A stretch of DNA of 59,271 bases. Source: Gemmatimonadota bacterium (GTDB lineage Bacteria; Gemmatimonadota; Gemmatimonadetes; Gemmatimonadales; Gemmatimonadaceae). Within the stretch, counting starts at the first letter, position 1; each line of letters starts with the position of its first letter. The notes beneath the pieces are model-generated. The model searched no databases, had not been told where the DNA came from, and was given only the letters and a program-made list of their open reading frames with translations. The stretch covers positions 1 to 59,271 of the forward strand of contig CANIWQ010000005.1 in assembly GCA_947471365.1 (NCBI GenBank), in the 5' to 3' direction. The translations under genes were made by a program, and so were the position numbers. Shown piece after piece: positions 22,347-30,615 of the stretch.

Positions 22347-23075
22347 CTACGGGGTTTTGGGGCGTCCCGGCACCTGTTTGAGCGAATCCTGAAGGTGGAG
22401 TAGTGCTACGGAATCGACCACCTTCTTGGTCGGAATCTTGATCGGTGGGGGGGGTGCCTTTTCAGGGGTTCCCTCGGCGTATGCGGTCAGGACGGCATTC
22501 ATCCAATCCCAGTCCTGAGCCCCGAAATAGGCTTTGCCGTTCACAAAGAAGGCTGGCGTCCCGCGTACCCCTTTCATGCGGGCATCGTCCTCGGCAGCAT
22601 CGAGGCGCTGTTGGTGCGAATGGCTCGCGGCGCAGGCGGCAAATATTGTCGTGTCCAGCCCCATTTCGGCAGCGTACCGGCGTAAGGTGCTGGGGATATC
22701 AGGATCCCGTTTCCATTGGTCTTGGCGGGCAAACAGCAGCTCGTGCATATCCCAAAACTTTCCTTGCGCGGCGGCGCAGACCGCGGCGGCCGACCCGGCG
22801 ACGCTCCCCCGATGCCACGCTAGGTCGATCACGGTGAGACGGAGCTTTCCGGTCTCCACCCACTTCAGCCGCAATTGTTCGGCGCCAGCCGTCGAGAATT
22901 GGCGGCAATCGTCACAGACCAAATCGTCGTAGTAAGTAAACTGAATAGGCGCGGTCGTCTCTCCCTGCACATACGCTACCGGTGAGGGGGTGTCGGCGGG
23001 ACGGGACTCAGTTCCGGTGCAGGCCGCAAAGGCCGTCACCAGCAGAGCAGCGACTATCGGAACGACTCGACGCAT
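22347..23075 (-). CDS. DsbA-family thioredoxin-fold lipoprotein
   Basis: Protein of 242 residues. A lipoprotein signal ends in AFAAC (Cys19). The DsbA-like fold follows: FTYYDDLVCDDCRQF gives the active-site C-D-D-C (54-57), a helical insertion covers about 95-155, and VRGTPAFFVNGKAYFGAQ holds the cis-proline loop (Pro174). It probably oxidises or isomerises disulfides, or transfers electrons, at the outer face of the inner membrane. The acidic CDDC dipeptide is less common than CPHC and would alter redox potential. A Pro/Lys-rich C-terminal tail (205-242) is unassigned. The ATG at 23075 is chosen because the signal peptide begins there. It is co-oriented with the cupredoxin gene, 115 bp away. 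Confidence 0.88.
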   Translation of the reverse strand: MRRVVPIVAALLVTAFAACTGTESRPADTPSPVAYVQGETTAPIQFTYYDDLVCDDCRQFSTAGAEQLRLKWVETGKLRLTVIDLAWHRGSVAGSAAAVCAAAQGKFWDMHELLFARQDQWKRDPDIPSTLRRYAAEMGLDTTIFAACAASHSHQQRLDAAEDDARMKGVRGTPAFFVNGKAYFGAQDWDWMNAVLTAYAEGTPEKAPPPPIKIPTKKVVDSVALLHLQDSLKQVPGRPKTP

Positions 23076-23225
23076 CAGACACCTATAAGGAACGGGGAAG
23101 ACAGACGGTGACCATCTTCTATGACGGAACATTCCAATATCCGTCGAACTTTGTTGAATTAACCACGCGCCATAGAAATCTTTGCGGTGGGACTCTTTCG
23201 CGCCACCGCTTGCTCACCTTCGCGA

Positions 23226-23254
23226 TTGACGCACCGAACACCATCCACTAGCCT
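23226..23254 (+). promoter_or_regulatory. Candidate his operon promoter
   Basis: TTGACG (23226-23231) and TAGCCT (23249-23254) with a 17-base spacer. The predicted transcript start falls at or one base before the ATG of the leader peptide at 23262, which would make the leader-peptide mRNA leaderless and explains the lack of a ribosome binding site. The -10 match is only 3 of 6. Confidence 0.4.
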
Positions 23255-23261
23255 TCAATTT

Positions 23262-23348
23262 ATGACGCGCCGCTTCTACCTCCACGACTTGCACCACCAC
23301 GCCCCGACGGGTCGCGGTTTCATGTCGTGCGTTCGAGTAGCTGTCTAA
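23262..23348 (+). CDS. hisL: Histidine-rich leader peptide of the his operon
   Basis: Short reading frame of 28 residues, ATG to TAA, beginning MTRRFYLHDLHHHAPTGR. Four of six consecutive codons (8-13) specify His, with His11-13 uninterrupted. It sits directly before a terminator hairpin and hisG. The same transcript carries GACGGGTCG (23306-23314), able to pair over 9 bp (one G-U) with CGGCCCGTC (23375-23383), the 5' arm of that terminator. This is the layout of his attenuators: stalling at His codons frees the upstream segment to block the terminator. No Shine-Dalgarno is seen. Identification rests on sequence logic; translation is untested. Confidence 0.78.
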   Translation: MTRRFYLHDLHHHAPTGRGFMSCVRVAV

Positions 23349-23375
23349 AGCGCTCAGAGCTGCCCAAATGATTCC

Positions 23376-23408
23376 GGCCCGTCCTCTTTATGGACGGGCC
23401 TTTTTTTT
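23376..23408 (+). terminator. his attenuator terminator
   Basis: 9-bp perfect GC-rich stem GGCCCGTCC / GGACGGGCC, 7-base loop, then eight T. It lies between the leader peptide stop (23348) and the hisG start (23430). The competing antiterminator pairs 23306-23314 with 23375-23383 and would remove almost the whole 5' arm. Confidence 0.92.
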
Positions 23409-23429
23409 CTCGCCACCACGCCACGATCT

Positions 23430-24293
23430 ATGCTTCGCATCGCACTTCCCAACAAAGGGCGTCTACACCAGGAGTGCCGCGAACTGCTCGCGGACGCCGG
23501 ACTTGCCGTCCGCGCATCCAGTGAACGGGCGCTGACGGCGTCGCTCGGTGGGGCGTTCGAGGCCATCTTTGTTCGCGCGCAAGACATTCCCGAGTTCGTC
23601 GCCGACGGCGCGGCGGACGCTGGCATCACGGGATGGGACCTCGTCGTGGAATCGGGACGGCCATTGACGTCCCGACTTGATCTCGCATTTGGTCGATGCA
23701 CGATCGTCGTCGCTGCGCGTGAGGACAGTGGCATCCGCGCTGTGGCTGACATTCCTGAGCAGAGTCGCGTGGCCACGGTGTTTCCAAACATCACGCGCAC
23801 CTTCTTTGCTGACCAAGGCAAAGCCGTGGTCCTGGCGCCGGTCTCGGGCGCGGTGGAAATCGCCCCACACCTCGGCATCGCCGATGTCATCGTCGACATT
23901 ACCTCCACGGGGTCTACCCTTCGCGTCAACGGACTCCGCCCGGTGTGCACGGTCATGGAGTCAAGCGCGCGCCTCATTAGCGCTACGACCCCACTCGCCG
24001 ATGCGCAAAAAGTGCGGGCACTCGACGAACTCGCGATGGCGCTGCAATCCGTGTTAGCCGCGCGCGGAAGACGCTACGTGATGGCGAACGTGCCTCGCGC
24101 GCGCCTCGACGAGGTCAAGCGCATCTTGCCCGGGATCTCCGGCCCAACAGTCATCGACGTTATGAATGGTGGGACAATGGTCGCCGTGCACGCCGTCGCC
24201 CCGGCCGACACCATCTTCCGCACCATCGCTGACCTCAAGGCACTCGGCGGCGAAGGCATTCTTGTCACGCGCATTGAACGGTTGATGCCATGA
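23430..24293 (+). CDS. hisG: ATP phosphoribosyltransferase, long form
   Basis: First enzyme of histidine synthesis, joining PRPP and ATP; 287 residues. LRIALPNKGRL opens the periplasmic-binding-protein-like catalytic fold, VADGAADAGITGWDLVVE follows, and DVIVDITSTGSTLRVNGL is the PRPP-binding signature. The C-terminal regulatory domain (about 210-287, ending LGGEGILVTRIERLMP) marks the long HisG form, which acts without HisZ and is inhibited by histidine. Control is thus twofold: attenuation of transcription at the leader and feedback on the enzyme. It overlaps hisD by 4 bases (ATGA). Confidence 0.96.
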   Translation: MLRIALPNKGRLHQECRELLADAGLAVRASSERALTASLGGAFEAIFVRAQDIPEFVADGAADAGITGWDLVVESGRPLTSRLDLAFGRCTIVVAAREDSGIRAVADIPEQSRVATVFPNITRTFFADQGKAVVLAPVSGAVEIAPHLGIADVIVDITSTGSTLRVNGLRPVCTVMESSARLISATTPLADAQKVRALDELAMALQSVLAARGRRYVMANVPRARLDEVKRILPGISGPTVIDVMNGGTMVAVHAVAPADTIFRTIADLKALGGEGILVTRIERLMP

Positions 24294-25603
24294 TCACGAT
24301 CGCGGTTCGCGCCGATGCCGCGCGGTTGTCCGCCTCGGAGCGGGCGATCCTCTTTGATCGATCGACAAGCGCCGACCCGGCCATTCGAGTCGCAACGGCC
24401 CGGCTCATCGACCGCGTGCGCACTCAGGGTGACGCCGCGCTCATCGCAATGGCGCGCGAGTTCGATGGTGCGTCCCTCCGGTCGCTGGAGATACCCCGCG
24501 CGGAATGGCGCCGTGCACTCGCAACACTTGATCCGCAGTTAGTCGCGGCGCTCGAGCGCGCGGCCGCAAACATTCGTCAGGTGCACGAGGCCTTTAAACC
24601 GGTCGCCCGCGAAGTCATGACGGCGGATGGCGTGGTGGTGGGACGTCGTCCAGATCCACTCGCGCGCGTTGGGGTGTATGCGCCGGGTGGACGTGCCACG
24701 TACCCCAGTAGTCTGCTGATGGGTGCCGTTCCGGCGCGCGTCGCAGGGGTTGGCGAAGTTATCGTCTGCTCGCCGCCGACGTCCACAGGACTACCGGCGG
24801 CGGTGCTACTTGCGGCCGCCGAGATTGCCGATGTGGATCGACTGTTCGCCGTTGGCGGAGCCGGCGCGATTGCCGCACTCGCGTTCGGCACCGACAGTAT
24901 TCCGCGAGTGGATCGTATTGTAGGGCCTGGCAATGCGTACGTCGCCGAGGCCAAGCTGCAGGTCGCCGGCACGGTGGCCATTGATTCACCGGCGGGCCCC
25001 AGCGAACTCTTGGTCATCGCGGACGACTCGGCGGACGCTGACATTATTGCGCGTGAGATCGTGGCGCAGGCGGAACACGATCCGCTCGCCGCGGTCGTAC
25101 TCGTGACCACGGCATCGAGGTTGATCGGCGCCGTGGAACGGGCGCTCGCGCCACTCATCGCCACCACGCCACGGGCGACGATTGTACGCGAAGCGCTCGC
25201 AGCGCGCGGAGGCATGATCACCGCGGCAACACTCGCCGAGGCTGAAGCGTTTGCAACAGCGTACGCCGGCGAGCATGTGCTGGTGGTGTGCCAAGACGGC
25301 GATGGTGTCGCCGCGCGGCTTCGCAACGCTGGTACGGTCTTTGTTGGCGCCGCAAACAGCGTCGCGTTTGGAGATTATCTCAGCGGCGCCAATCATGTCC
25401 TCCCCACAGGAGGGCTGGCGCGGAGTTATTCTGGATTATCGACCATTGACTTCTATCGGTGGATAACCTGGCAGCGCGTGACCCGTACGGTCGCTGCACG
25501 CCTCGCCGCAGATGTTGGAATTCTCGCGGACTCCGAAGGATTGCCGGGGCACGCTGCCACCGCACGATACTGGATGGAGGAGGGACACGAATGCGACGGA
25601 TGA
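24290..25603 (+). CDS. hisD: Histidinol dehydrogenase
   Basis: Zn- and NAD-dependent enzyme of 437 residues that oxidises L-histidinol twice to histidine, the final steps. RVGVYAPGGRATYPSSLLM, VDRIVGPGNAYVAEAK, IDSPAGPSELLVIAD and QAEHDPLAAVVLV are the family blocks. Gln and His of the QAEHD block and a C-terminal His bind zinc. GLSTIDFYRWITWQRV is the conserved C-terminal block. It overlaps hisG at its start (ATGA), and its end overlaps the hisC start. Length and domain order match the family. Confidence 0.96.
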   Translation: MITIAVRADAARLSASERAILFDRSTSADPAIRVATARLIDRVRTQGDAALIAMAREFDGASLRSLEIPRAEWRRALATLDPQLVAALERAAANIRQVHEAFKPVAREVMTADGVVVGRRPDPLARVGVYAPGGRATYPSSLLMGAVPARVAGVGEVIVCSPPTSTGLPAAVLLAAAEIADVDRLFAVGGAGAIAALAFGTDSIPRVDRIVGPGNAYVAEAKLQVAGTVAIDSPAGPSELLVIADDSADADIIAREIVAQAEHDPLAAVVLVTTASRLIGAVERALAPLIATTPRATIVREALAARGGMITAATLAEAEAFATAYAGEHVLVVCQDGDGVAARLRNAGTVFVGAANSVAFGDYLSGANHVLPTGGLARSYSGLSTIDFYRWITWQRVTRTVAARLAADVGILADSEGLPGHAATARYWMEEGHECDG

Positions 25604-26649
25604 CGACGCAGCTTGCGCGCGAGGATCTATCCAAGATTCCGCTGTATAACTCCGATGTGCGCGTGGAACTCAACCTCGCCGACAATACGAATCTGTGGGG
25701 CTCACCACCATCTGCCATCGCCGCTATGCAGGCGGTGGTGACTGGTGGTGCCGCAGACTACCCTGATCTCTACGGCGCCTCGCTGAAGCAGGCCGTCGCG
25801 CTGATTCACGGCGTTGATGTTTCGTGCGTGGTCACGGGGAATGGTTCGGACGACGTGCTCGACTGCGCCGTGCGCGCGTTCGCCGGAGCGGGGGACCTCC
25901 TCGCACACCCCGATCCCACGTTCGTAATGTTGCCGATCTTTGCACAAATCAACGGACTTCAACCGGTGGCGGTTCCGCTCACGGCCGACCATCAAATGGA
26001 TGCTGCTGCCCTACTCGCGACAGGCGCGCGCATCATTTATCTCTGCACCCCAAACAATCCCACGGGCACGGCGACGCGTCCCGAAACAATCCTTCGGATC
26101 ATTGCCGAAGCACCGGGGCTCGTGATCATCGACGAAGCGTACGCCGAGTTCAGTGGCATGGAGGGATGGATCGGGCGGGCGGCTGCACTCGAGCGTGTGC
26201 TGGTATGCCGTACGCTGTCCAAGGCATACGGCCTTGCCGGACTGCGCATCGGATACGGCGTGGCATCGCGTCCCATCATCGATGCGGTCGAACGATCGCG
26301 CGGTCCGTATAAGCTCAGCACGATCGCTGAAGCCGCCGGCGTCGCCGCCATGCTCCAGGACGCAGACTGGGTACGCACGCGCGCAGCGGAATCGGTCCGT
26401 AATCGCGACCGCCTGTCAGCGGAACTTGCCACGCTCGGGCTGATGGCGCTTCCGTCCGACGCGAACTTTCTCTGCGTTCCGACGCCGCACGCGCTGGCGA
26501 TTACGGCGCACGCACGATCACTCGGTATCGCGCTCCGGGCCTGGGCCAACCTTCCCAACATTGGTCCGGCGCTGCGCATTACCGCAGGGCCGTGGCCGAT
26601 GATGGAGCGTGCATGCTGCGCAATCCGAGAGGCACTCGCATGCGTATAA
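25591..26649 (+). CDS. hisC: Histidinol-phosphate aminotransferase
   Basis: PLP class I/II aminotransferase of 352 residues that makes histidinol phosphate from imidazole acetol phosphate. LADNTNLWGSPPSAIAAM is the substrate-binding start, GNGSDDVLD the cofactor loop, YLCTPNNPTGTATR the conserved Asn block, IIDEAYAEFSG the Asp, and TLSKAYGLAGLRIGYG contains the PLP lysine. The ATG at 25591 is preferred because GGAGGAGG lies 9 bases upstream. A second ATG at 25600 overlaps the hisD stop as ATGA and is possible. The product could also act on aromatic amino acids, but the operon fixes its main job. Confidence 0.95.
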   Translation: MRRMTTQLAREDLSKIPLYNSDVRVELNLADNTNLWGSPPSAIAAMQAVVTGGAADYPDLYGASLKQAVALIHGVDVSCVVTGNGSDDVLDCAVRAFAGAGDLLAHPDPTFVMLPIFAQINGLQPVAVPLTADHQMDAAALLATGARIIYLCTPNNPTGTATRPETILRIIAEAPGLVIIDEAYAEFSGMEGWIGRAAALERVLVCRTLSKAYGLAGLRIGYGVASRPIIDAVERSRGPYKLSTIAEAAGVAAMLQDADWVRTRAAESVRNRDRLSAELATLGLMALPSDANFLCVPTPHALAITAHARSLGIALRAWANLPNIGPALRITAGPWPMMERACCAIREALACV

Positions 26650-27233
26650 CGTTATTCGACTATGGCGCAGGCAATCTTCATTCTCTGGCCAAGGCACTGC
26701 AGGGGAGAGGACGCGTCGTGGCAATCGAGCCAAATCCAATCCGTGCGATTGAAACCGACTTTCTCGTCCTGCCTGGCGTGGGCGCCTTTGGAGCAGCCGC
26801 CGCCGCACTGGCTCCGGGTCGCGATGCCATGGCTACGGCAATCCGCGCCGGACTACCGACCTTGGGAATTTGTCTCGGAATGCAGTTGATGTGCGACGGT
26901 AGCGACGAAGGCTCTGGTGATGGACTCGGTATCGTGTCAGGTCGAGTCGAAAAACTGCACGCGCGACACACACCACAAATCGGGTGGAACAGCATCGATG
27001 ACACCCGTGACACACTCTTTGCGGAGCCGCGCCTCGGCATTGCCTACTACGCCAACCGCTACGTGTGCCGCCCCGCGGACGCGGATGTCGTTATTGCGTG
27101 GTCCGTGCATGAGGCCGATCGTTTTCCCGCTGCGATTCGCTGGGGTCGAATGATCGGCGTGCAATTCCATCCGGAAAAAAGTTCAGCGCCCGGCATCGCG
27201 TTTCTGCAACGTGTTATCGCGGAGGCCGCATGA
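26640..27233 (+). CDS. hisH: Imidazole glycerol phosphate synthase, glutaminase subunit
   Basis: Class I glutamine amidotransferase of 197 residues. It releases ammonia that passes to HisF to form imidazole glycerol phosphate and AICAR. LFDYGAGNLHSLAKAL opens the protein, LPGVGAFG is the oxyanion strand, GICLGMQLMCDGS holds the nucleophile Cys78, and GVQFHPEKS the catalytic His and Glu. YYANRYVC is the usual interface strand. The ATG at 26640 overlaps the hisC end by 10 bases and fits the family start. It is followed by hisA with a 4-base overlap. Confidence 0.96.
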   Translation: MRITLFDYGAGNLHSLAKALQGRGRVVAIEPNPIRAIETDFLVLPGVGAFGAAAAALAPGRDAMATAIRAGLPTLGICLGMQLMCDGSDEGSGDGLGIVSGRVEKLHARHTPQIGWNSIDDTRDTLFAEPRLGIAYYANRYVCRPADADVVIAWSVHEADRFPAAIRWGRMIGVQFHPEKSSAPGIAFLQRVIAEAA

Positions 27234-27943
27234 TTGTCATTCCCGCCATCGATCTCCGGGAAGGGTGTGTCGTACAATTGGTCGGCGGTGACTTCTCCAA
27301 AGAAGCCGTGCGCCTCGAAAATCCCCACGAAGTCGCGCAACGATGGACGGGGCTCGGGTTCTCGCGATTACACATCGTTGATCTTGACGCGGCCACGGGG
27401 CGCGGATCGAACGCCGCGATCGTGCGGGAGTTGTTACGCGATGCCACGATCCAGATACAGGTCGGCGGTGGCGTCCGTACGACCGATCAGGTCACGGAGC
27501 TGTTCGACGCCGGCGCCACCAGTGTTGTCGTGGGCACACGGGCGCTCGAAGATCGAGATTGGCTCGACGATATGGCACATCAGCACCCCTTCGGGATCCT
27601 CGTCGCCGCGGATGTGCGCGAGCGTCGAGTGGTCACGCATGGCTGGGCGCGTGATTCGAGACGTTTGATTCTCGACGTGATCGAGGATCTCGACGGATTA
27701 CCGCTCGCGGGACTGCTCGTGACGGCGGTTCACCGTGAGGGACAAATGAAGGGCACGGATCTGCCGTTAATGGAAGCGGTGGCGGAGGCAAGTGCTTGGC
27801 CGGTGCTCGCCTCTGGCGGCATTGCTTCGCTCGCGGATTTACGATCGCTTGAGGACCGCCGCATTGCCGGTGCCGTACTCGGCATGGCGCTCTATACCGG
27901 TGCCATTGCTCCCCATATTCTCGTCGAGGAATTTGCGCAATGA
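27230..27943 (+). CDS. hisA: ProFAR isomerase
   Basis: TIM-barrel isomerase of 237 residues that turns ProFAR into PRFAR. IPAIDLREGCVVQLVGGDF has the catalytic Asp and first phosphate loop, LHIVDLDAATGRGSN the second block, IQVGGGVRTTDQV the N-half phosphate site, and VLASGGIASLADLRSL the C-half phosphate site with the repeat symmetry of HisA/HisF. The second catalytic Asp position falls in the LVTAVHREGQMKGTD region, where HisA usually has a TDI motif; here it reads TAV, a mild departure. Overlaps of 4 bases on both sides show coupling. Confidence 0.95.
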   Translation: MIVIPAIDLREGCVVQLVGGDFSKEAVRLENPHEVAQRWTGLGFSRLHIVDLDAATGRGSNAAIVRELLRDATIQIQVGGGVRTTDQVTELFDAGATSVVVGTRALEDRDWLDDMAHQHPFGILVAADVRERRVVTHGWARDSRRLILDVIEDLDGLPLAGLLVTAVHREGQMKGTDLPLMEAVAEASAWPVLASGGIASLADLRSLEDRRIAGAVLGMALYTGAIAPHILVEEFAQ

Positions 27944-28485
27944 ACACGCCTGTCGTCATCACGCGCGAAACGAGTGAGACGGTCGTGCGCGTCGAGGCAC
28001 GCATCGGCACCGGCCTCGCGCACATCGAAACACCCGTGCGCTTTCTCAACCACATGCTGACCGTGCTCGCGCGATACTCGGCGATCGACCTCACGGTCTC
28101 GGCGTCCGGTGATCTGCGCCATCACATCATTGAGGACGTGGCGCTCGCCGTCGGTGCCGCAATCGCCGGCCTCGTCCCGGCGGGCGCCGCACGTTACGGA
28201 GAGCGCACGGTTCCCATGGACGAGGCACTCGTACAGGCCGTGCTCGATGTTGGCGGACGGCCATTCTACCGCGGCCCCATCCCCAGCGCACTGTACGAAC
28301 ACTGGATGCGCTCGTTCAGTGACGCATCGAAGTTCACGCTCCATCTGCGTGTGCTGCGCGGATCCGATCGGCACCACGTCATCGAAGCCGCCTATAAGGC
28401 GCTGGGTTTTTCCTTGCGTCAGTCACTCAGTGATACCGGGAGTGTCTTCAGTACCAAGGGTGCCGTCCGGCTGGAGCGGTTGTGA
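27940..28485 (+). CDS. hisB: Imidazoleglycerol-phosphate dehydratase
   Basis: Mn-dependent dehydratase of 181 residues acting on imidazole glycerol phosphate. It is the monofunctional form without the histidinol phosphatase domain, which explains why a separate hisN follows. Metal-binding blocks are [22 protein letters not shown] and [16 protein letters not shown], the last two being the two-fold repeat of the fold. [19 protein letters not shown] is the conserved middle. The C-terminus is somewhat short. It overlaps hisA (ATGA) and hisF (GTGA). Confidence 0.96.
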
Positions 28486-29249
28486 CGCTGACGCGCCGGC
28501 TCATCGTTTGTCTTGATGTGCGCGACGGTCGCGTGGTGAAGGGAACTAATTTCGTTGGACTCCGAGACGTGGGTGACCCTGTCGCGCTCGCGGAGCAGTA
28601 CGAGCGCGAGGGAGCCGACGAACTCGTGTTTTTGGATATCACGGCGACGCAGGAGGAACGAGCGACGCTCCTTGATCTCGTTCGGCGGACCGCGGAGCGT
28701 CTGTTTATTCCGCTGACGATTGGTGGGGGTGTTCGCTCAGTCGAAGACATCGCGGCCGTCTTGCGCGCGGGTGCCGATAAAGTGGGAATCAACTCGGCGG
28801 CCGTTCGTACCCCTTCATTGATCAATGAAGGGGCGGCGCGATTTGGAGCGCAATGCATCGTCGCTTCTATTGATGCCAAGCGCGAGGGAGATCGCTGGGT
28901 CGTCTACACCGCCGGCGGTCACACACGCACGGATCTCAACGCGGTGGCGTGGGCACAGGAGTGTGCGATGCGTGGGGCCGGTGAAATCTTACTCACGAGC
29001 ATCGACCGTGACGGCGTTCGCACCGGTTACGACCTTGCCCTCACCAAGGCGATTTCTACTGTCGTCGATGTGCCGGTGGTGGCAAGCGGCGGGGCCGGGC
29101 TCCCGGCGCACGTCGTTGCGGCGATTACCGATGGTGGGGCAGATGCAGCGCTCGTCGCCGGTATTCTTCACGATGGTGTGACCACGGTCGCCGCTCTCAA
29201 ATCCGCGATGCGCGCGGCTAATCTTTTAGTGCGAGACACGGCAGCATGA
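28482..29249 (+). CDS. hisF: Imidazole glycerol phosphate synthase, cyclase subunit
   Basis: TIM-barrel cyclase of 255 residues that partners with His[20 protein letters not shown] contains the catalytic Asp, [13 protein letters not shown] the second block, [12 protein letters not shown] and [13 protein letters not shown] the two phosphate sites, and [18 protein letters not shown] the second catalytic Asp. The start is GTG at 28482, overlapping the hisB stop as GTGA. An exact 24-bp palindrome lies inside the gene at 28810-28833. It overlaps hisN by 4 bases. Confidence 0.96.
28810..28833. repeat. 24-bp perfect palindrome inside hisF
   Basis: The half CCCCTTCATTGA is followed at once by its exact reverse complement. 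The DNA codes TPSLINEGA, a normal part of HisF, so selection at protein level may explain most of it. The third-base choices still complete the symmetry. Confidence 0.9.
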
Positions 29250-30025
29250 GTGAATCATCCGACACGCTGATGCAGGCGGCAGCTGAGGTTGCGCGTATCG
29301 CCGGCGCGACAGCGCTCCAGTACTTTCACACGAATGTCTCGGTGGAATGGAAGGCAGACGGCACGCCGGTAACCGTCGCCGATCGCGCCGCGGAACGCGC
29401 CGCCCGTGACTGGATCGCCCAGCGGTTTCCGGACGACGGTATTCTCGGTGAGGAGTTCGGTGAGCAGCCAGGGCGCAGCGGGCGATGCTGGATTCTGGAC
29501 CCTATCGATGGCACGAAGTCGTTCGTACGAGGGGTTCCGTTGTGGGGCTCACTGGTCGCGGTCGCACAGGGCCATGACGTGCTCGCGGGCGCCGCGTCCT
29601 TTCCGCCACTCGCGGAACTCATTGCGGCCGCGCCTGGCTGTGGCGCGTGGTGCAACGGCGCGCGCGCCCAGGTTAGCGCAGTGGATACCGTCGAACGTGC
29701 CACCGTGCTGGTCACAGACGATACAACACCAGGGCCAGCCGCCGCCCATCGCGGCTGGAAAGAGTTACAGGCACGCGCTGCAGTCAGCCGGACGTGGGGT
29801 GACTGCTATGGATACCTGATGGTGGCCACCGGTCGCGCTGAGGTGATGATGGATTTTACGCTCGGCGACTGGGACGCTGCCTGTTTTCAACCGATCATAA
29901 CGGAGGCCGGTGGCGTGTTCACCGATCTGATGGGCCACCCCACGGCGTTCGGCGGCAACGCCGTGGCGACCAATGTGGCGCTTGATGCCGAGGTGCGCGC
30001 GTTGCTGCGTGGGGCCACGCGATGA
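29246..30025 (+). CDS. hisN: Histidinol-phosphatase, inositol monophosphatase type
   Basis: Mg-dependent phosphatase of 259 residues in the IMPase superfamily, placed inside the his operon and thus expected to dephosphorylate histidinol phosphate. ILGEEFGE holds metal-binding glutamates, [18 protein letters not shown] is the family signature D-P-I-D-G-T, and [18 protein letters not shown] the C-terminal Asp block. The pathway needs this step because HisB here lacks its phosphatase half. Overlaps of 4 bases with hisF and hisIE tie it to the operon. IMPase relatives act on inositol phosphates or PAP, less likely in this context. Confidence 0.93.
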
Positions 30026-30615
30026 CATTGGATCTCACGACACTGAACTTCGACAAGAGCGGCGGTATGGTCACCGTCGTGGCGCAGGACGCACGCTCCG
30101 GTCGTGTATTGATGGTGGCGCACGCGGATGCGGAAGCGCTCCAGCGGAGCATCGATACCGGTGAGATGCACTATCGGTCTCGCTCACGCGGTCTTTGGCA
30201 CAAAGGCGCAACGAGTGGCAACACCCAGCAACTCGTGGAGCTCGTGGCCGACTGCGACGCGGACGCGGTGCTTGCCCGCGTGATCCCCGCCGGTCCAGCC
30301 TGCCACACCGGCGCCATCACCTGCTTCGGCAATGGCGCCGCAGACACGCTTGGAGAGCTCGACGCAACGATCGACGCCCGAGCCGCGGAGCAGAACGGCG
30401 CGGGGTACACCGCCAAACTACTCGCCGACAGAAACACGCGTCTTAAGAAATTGGGCGAGGAGGCGAGTGAACTCGTCACCGCATGCGCCGACGGTGACGC
30501 GGCGCGGGCAACCGAAGAGGCGGCGGATCTCATCTACCACACACTCGTCGCCCTGCATGCTGCCGGCGGATCGCTTGATGGCGTGCGCGACGTCCTTCGC
30601 GCGCGGCGGCGGTAA
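30022..30615 (+). CDS. hisIE: Fused PRAMP cyclohydrolase / PRATP pyrophosphohydrolase
   Basis: Bifunctional protein of 197 residues for steps 2 and 3. The HisI part (1 to about 108) has MHYRSRSRGLWHKGATSGNT and the zinc ligands in ADCDADAVL and CHTGAITCF. The HisE part (about 115-197) has the all-alpha MazG-like motif LGEEASELVTACADGD and EEAADLIYH, binding Mg. Fusion order I-E is the common one. It is the last gene of the operon, ended by a GC-rich hairpin that holds its stop codon. With it the operon covers all steps of histidine synthesis. Confidence 0.96.
   Translation: MTLDLTTLNFDKSGGMVTVVAQDARSGRVLMVAHADAEALQRSIDTGEMHYRSRSRGLWHKGATSGNTQQLVELVADCDADAVLARVIPAGPACHTGAITCFGNGAADTLGELDATIDARAAEQNGAGYTAKLLADRNTRLKKLGEEASELVTACADGDAARATEEAADLIYHTLVALHAAGGSLDGVRDVLRARRR

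Follow-up and report, generated by a model that had tools for sequence, protein, structure and literature searches.

The histidine biosynthesis (his) operon in the window (the whole 59,271-nt stretch of Gemmatimonadota genome DNA analyzed here) is very probably controlled by a ribosome-mediated transcription attenuator, a reading based on sequence, conservation, promoter spacing and structural compatibility. The mechanism is conventional, being that of classic ribosome-mediated attenuation, and its novelty lies in the predicted leaderless form and in its unexpected breadth across the phylum. It is part of a wider family of attenuators in this little-studied phylum, other members of which serve tyrosine and phenylalanine genes.

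The operon was encoded on the forward strand in the order hisG-D-C-H-A-B-F-N-IE (23430-30615), with hisG as first gene (23430-24293; TIGR00070 at 204.7 bits, and TIGR03455) and hisD, hisC, hisH, hisA, hisB, hisF, hisN and hisIE (24290-30615) assigned by profile matches. It was preceded on the same strand by a leader open reading frame (ORF) of 28 codons, MTRRFYLHDLHHHAPTGRGFMSCVRVAV, extending from the ATG at 23262 to the TAA at 23346-23348, with regulatory His codons (23283-23300) at positions 8 (23283-23285) and 11 to 13 (23292-23300). An intrinsic terminator followed, consisting of a 9-bp stem-loop with 8 G-C pairs (23376-23400) and a run of eight T (23401-23408). The first-pass annotation of this DNA had described this succession of His-rich frame, hairpin with eight T and hisG, and its coordinates proved exact to the base. 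The antiterminator strand (segment 2, GACGGGTCG, 23306-23314), located within Thr-Gly-Arg-Gly codons, can pair with the 5' arm of the terminator (segment 3, CGGCCCGTC, 23375-23383), for which segments 2 and 4 are alternative partners; the 9 bp that had been proposed between segments 2 and 3 were recovered, one of them being G-U (T23312 with G23377).

The arrangement of leader and terminator is real and beyond chance. The 159-nt leader was predicted by folding to be more stable than its dinucleotide shuffles (z -2.66), the terminator pattern GCCCGT(N3-12)ACGGGC(N0-4)TTTT occurred at 2 sites in the 3.3 Mb of the organism's own genome (0 in the reversed control), and the arrangement recurred before hisG in 97 distinct loci. 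As the upstream neighbor gene (22347-23132) lies on the opposite strand, the terminator at 23376-23408 is not that gene's and stands inside the his transcript.

His leaders were conserved before hisG well beyond the window. Among relatives gathered with the window's HisG as query, a His-rich short frame was present at 25 of 25 orthologous-HisG loci with upstream sequence (L001-L025, from the family and its neighbors), 24 of them recognized by script and L022, whose frame is interrupted by two N, by eye; a terminator accompanied the leader at these 25 loci. The wider collection added Candidatus Eisenbacteria and Myxococcaceae/Archangiaceae (Myxococcus xanthus, Corallococcus, Archangium), nearly all with the leader, and the 97 distinct loci left after de-duplication were spread over three phyla (Gemmatimonadota, Eisenbacteria, and that of Myxococcaceae/Archangiaceae). 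These leaders had 4 to 9 His codons each and averaged 27 aa in length, and a simple scan found a terminator between the leader ORF and the first gene at 91 of the 97 loci. A covariance model built from 24 His leaders and searched over 297 Gemmatimonadota genomes gave 96 matches at E<=1e-6, 93 of which lay before hisG on the same strand, at a distance of 6 to 101 nt (median 38). Weaker matches to this model (E 1e-3 to 1e-5) were partly chance (L198, L202, L208). No leader was found directly before hisG at the two loci where hisG was not first in the operon (L027, L028).

Promoter spacing was conserved together with the leader. In the window, a -35 element TTGACG (23226-23231) and a -10 element TAGCCT (23249-23254) are separated by a 17-nt spacer, and TTGAC was found at equal spacing in most relatives; transcription is accordingly predicted to start around 23261-23262, at the leader ATG. 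The 97 loci were scanned over 150 nt on either side of the leader start, with no position preference and the best site taken. In 92 of them the best promoter ended 5 to 11 nt upstream of the start codon, an exact distance biased towards this range for leaders with multiple in-frame starts, as start codons had been picked with the promoter in mind. Shine-Dalgarno-like 4-mers were seen at 4 of the 97 loci, and none preceded the window's leader ORF. The first-pass annotation had already pointed to this lack, which the predicted start at the ATG explains without any defect. Leaderless messages are recognized by a start codon at the expected transcription start, without Shine-Dalgarno, and the window displayed this combination, as judged from promoter spacing only; the his leader mRNA would thus probably begin at its ATG or no more than about 4 nt from it.

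Leaderless starts seem to be ordinary in this organism, given that the pattern TTGAC-N16-18-TAnnnT-N5-8-ATG occurred at 11 sites in its genome (4 in the reversed control), several of them at gene starts recognized by eye. DUF177-like and HslV-like genes (L124 and L129, also identified by eye) had their start codon 5 to 8 nt after such a TTGAC/TAnnnT promoter. Leaderless leader ORFs are on record for trpL of Sinorhizobium meliloti (PMC7298713) and for leuL, trpL and ilvL of Streptomyces lividans (PMC8079986), with the mRNA 5' end at the ATG (predicted in the window) and no Shine-Dalgarno in both cases; they concern other amino acids and phyla, and the excerpts of these two papers include no His leader.

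Folding of the nascent RNA predicted that the position of the ribosome decides the structure in the window. The RNA was folded to 23386, where the 3' arm of the terminator is not yet made, with an assumed ribosome footprint of 15 nt beyond the first base of the P-site codon. Without ribosome, or once it had reached the stop codon, the probability of pairing between segments 2 and 3 was 0.00, segment 2 being held inside a predicted protector hairpin (23283-23329; CACGAC at 23283-23288 with GTCGTG at 23324-23329, and inner pairs between 23296-23304 and 23309-23318). With the ribosome stalled at His8, His11 or His12, this probability rose to 1.00, while with His13 in the A site, where the ribosome would cover part of segment 2, it reached 0.13. 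The first-pass claim that stalling at the His codons frees segment 2 was therefore borne out, since occupying the His region moved segment 2 onto the terminator arm in the fold. The protector is an addition to that reading: in the model it is needed to hold segment 2 when translation completes or never starts.

In the full-length RNA, the terminator formed with a probability of 1.00 in every ribosome state, so that the decision must be kinetic and taken while the 3' arm is transcribed, as in classic systems. Such a strong terminator, dominant at equilibrium, would also suit a constitutive partial terminator that imposes a fixed drop in his expression, the His-rich frame having no regulatory role. 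This alternative appears highly unlikely, because most of the 97 loci keep His codons 4 to 5 nt upstream of segment 2, promoter-to-ATG spacing was conserved as well, and Tyr and Phe codons replaced His codons where the same cassette precedes aromatic genes. Folding of 85 leaders agreed with attenuation: in the stalled state, segment 3 pairing averaged 0.81 (0.58 with shuffled ORF tails), and with the ribosome at the stop codon 0.50 (0.31 with shuffled tails). An antiterminator formed on stalling is thus predicted to be general, while the mean of 0.50 at the stop codon indicates that in many relatives the predicted protector leaves segment 2 unheld.

From these elements we infer a transcription start at the leader, leader translation, stalling and a response to histidine. 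RNA polymerase would start at or next to the leader ATG, and a ribosome would load on the leaderless 5' end. With ample His-tRNA, it would reach the stop codon, the His-codon segment would refold with the leader tail into the protector, and segment 2 would be held there, allowing the terminator (23376-23408) to form before hisG. With scarce His-tRNA, the ribosome would stall at His8 or His11-12 and cover the 5' strand of the protector; the freed segment 2 would then pair with segment 3 ahead of the synthesis of the terminator's 3' arm, and polymerase would continue into hisG. Without translation, protector and terminator would both form and the operon would be off.

The window thus combines an ORF with His codons, a terminator and an alternative antiterminator that uses the 5' arm of the terminator, the constituents of this functional class. 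The likeness to enterobacterial his attenuation put forward in the first-pass annotation holds for both logic and structure. Escherichia coli/Salmonella hisL (RF00514, His_leader) likewise has an ORF with His codons, mutually exclusive antiterminator and terminator, and hisG as first gene, but its seven His codons stand in a row, whereas those of the window are interspersed (H..HHH). The window also differs from hisL by its predicted leaderless start, a simpler set of arms, and a conserved CGGG/CCCG core coding for Thr-Gly-Arg-Gly. RF00514 had no match in the window, at the gathering threshold or at E<=10, nor in nine related loci. Proteobacteria and three Firmicutes lineages have known His attenuators, according to the excerpts of PMC9413887. 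The Firmicutes ones are likewise leader peptides with 3 to 5 His codons before a terminator; they belong to other phyla, and those excerpts neither mention Gemmatimonadetes nor describe a leaderless start.

His T-boxes precede his genes in other bacteria (excerpts of PMC9413887), and the region could in principle be a T-box or another riboswitch next to a frame rich in His by chance. We give this explanation practically no weight, as no Rfam family was found at the gathering threshold in the window and nine related loci, and the T-box model remained unmatched even at E<=10. Low-scoring Rfam matches in the window (sRNA and Thr_leader) corresponded to the terminator hairpin and were discarded.

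The attenuator arms were conserved in register. Segment 2 mostly lay 4 to 5 nt past the last His codon (about 12 nt in Myxococcaceae), and when segments 2 and 3 were aligned in register 88.6% of the cells were paired, against at most 52.4% when slid. The core CGGG/CCCG was almost invariant across His leaders, which accounts for the little covariation seen: inside the His set, covariation of segments 2 and 3 was not above shuffles. The conservation expected from the first-pass annotation was therefore found for His codons and arms in the relatives, while covarying arms were seen weakly. Segments 2, 3 and 4 were altered together in three leaders (L014, L040, L046). Complementarity within single leaders was only moderately better than in GC-rich shuffles (mean z -1.5). 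When His and aromatic leaders were considered together, the first antiterminator pair was G-C in 43 cases, C-G in 26, C-C in 13 and G-G in 0 (Fisher p 5e-12), His leaders displaying G-C and aromatic ones C-G. This covariation mostly reflects one change between two families, and counts as support rather than as many independent events.

The motif GPTGRG, conserved after the His run, could point to a leader peptide acting in trans, with attenuation secondary, for which peTrpL of Sinorhizobium offers a precedent (excerpts of PMC7298713). This possibility is extremely unlikely, as GPTGRG is what GGCCCGACGGGCCGCGG must encode, and the frame-shifted leaders L007, L013 and L023 keep the DNA while their peptide differs, showing that conservation follows RNA and not protein. 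On this ground, no role was assigned to the GPTGRG peptide itself.

Gemmatimonadota genomes also harbored Tyr- and Phe-codon leaders built on the cassette of the His leader, which made up most of the His-model matches not located before hisG. The other terminator-pattern site of the own genome (contig C19) lay before DAHP synthase (Pfam PF00793), behind a leaderless Tyr/Phe leader, MNAGAATYFYYYYRTPVTGRGGRG (G000:C19:17177-17323; L231:1388-1534, also L252). In its predicted fold (dot-bracket), the antiterminator formed both in the free RNA and on stalling, and disappeared when a ribosome occupying the stop codon covered segment 2. A model built from 15 Tyr/Phe leaders matched 88 of the 297 genomes at E<=1e-5, a count that includes some His leaders. 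Among 30 aromatic loci fetched, the downstream gene identified by motif was DAHP synthase in 14, phenylalanine hydroxylase in 13 and prephenate dehydratase in 1; Pfam confirmed DAHP_synth_1 at L231, Biopterin_H at L197 and L206, and CM_2 and PDT at L196. Codons varied with the target: phenylalanine hydroxylase leaders carried mostly Tyr codons, DAHP synthase leaders Tyr/Phe codons and chorismate mutase/prephenate dehydratase leaders Phe codons.

Tyr-rich leaders, mostly leaderless, preceded phenylalanine hydroxylase (Biopterin_H) at L197, L206, L249, L253, L255, L258, L261, L265, L267, L269, L271 and L273, implying a putative tyrosine-sensing control of the enzyme that converts Phe to Tyr. If true, this would be a previously undescribed target, as far as found. 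Searches of the open-licence literature, where absence is weak evidence, returned no publication on attenuation of phenylalanine hydroxylase, and none on attenuation in Gemmatimonadota. A Phe-Tyr-Phe leader is known before DAHP synthase in aroR-aroF of Corynebacterium glutamicum (PMC11802643), and works like the Gemmatimonadota Tyr/Phe leaders before this gene; what sets the latter apart from aroR-aroF is that they have the switch cassette in common with the His leader and stand before phenylalanine hydroxylase as well.

We lean towards a single cassette, made of a leaderless ORF and a Thr-Gly-Arg-Gly-coded antiterminator a few nt after the sensing codons, that was reused in Gemmatimonadota with codons swapped (His for hisG and once hisC, Tyr for phenylalanine hydroxylase, Tyr/Phe for DAHP synthase, Phe for chorismate mutase/prephenate dehydratase), and whose His form reached Myxococcaceae/Archangiaceae by horizontal transfer. 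A HisG tree with 83 rows, sampled for similarity to the window, placed Myxococcaceae/Archangiaceae as one clade (100/100) among Gemmatimonadota, with support of 84/86 for its sister group and 90/87 for the larger group. Together with the shared leader, this tree suggests, without proving it, a joint transfer of the his operon and its attenuator.

Classic amino-acid attenuation would be placed as a phylum-wide control where no report was found, coupled to predicted leaderless initiation, through a compact switch that hardly varies and whose sensing codons seem interchangeable. Attenuation depends on the ribosome keeping pace with RNA polymerase; as a natural series, these leaders lend themselves to studying how this is achieved when the mRNA is leaderless. 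The same leader in Myxococcus xanthus (L101) makes the mechanism testable in a laboratory organism amenable to genetics.

A leader combining codons for Phe, Tyr, Trp and His, an unusual mixture, preceded a DAHP synthase-like gene at L195 (G170:C23; MSTRAFSYWHGYRTPPRMGSGVR). A similar terminator stood before ilvD at L207 (G103:C81:36554-36668), and the stretch just upstream, which reads VIQTTVALLGLIVVALVSLTGLIGV, suggests a candidate branched-chain amino acid leader. No Trp, ilvB or leuA leader passed the filter in eight genomes. In the own genome (G000), no leuA or ilvB scored over the curated cut-off, possibly reflecting branched-chain amino acid auxotrophy or an assembly gap.

Distant HisG types (34 to 38% identity) were also preceded by leaderless His leaders, with different stem sequences (L029, L030, L111-L114, L117). 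Two genomes of the window's own genus, G003 (L111) and G010 (L030), harbored such a HisG (about 34% identity) with a leaderless His leader; their his operon seems to have been replaced, and its control kept or regained. In five others of the same genus (G001, G004, G005, G008, G016; listed as 95-99% complete) hisG was not found, while sister species have it, and histidine synthesis may have been lost. Two records look contaminated or mislabelled, namely Comamonas sp. KCTC 72670 (L098), with a Myxococcus-like HisG and leader, and a Candidatus Kuenenia bin (L096), with a Gemmatimonadaceae-like HisG and leader. One genome with a His leader before hisG harbored a second one, MISVTAHPHHHVHHTPRTGRVVVGVGA (L193; G122:C210:21797-21942), before an aminotransferase resembling hisC.
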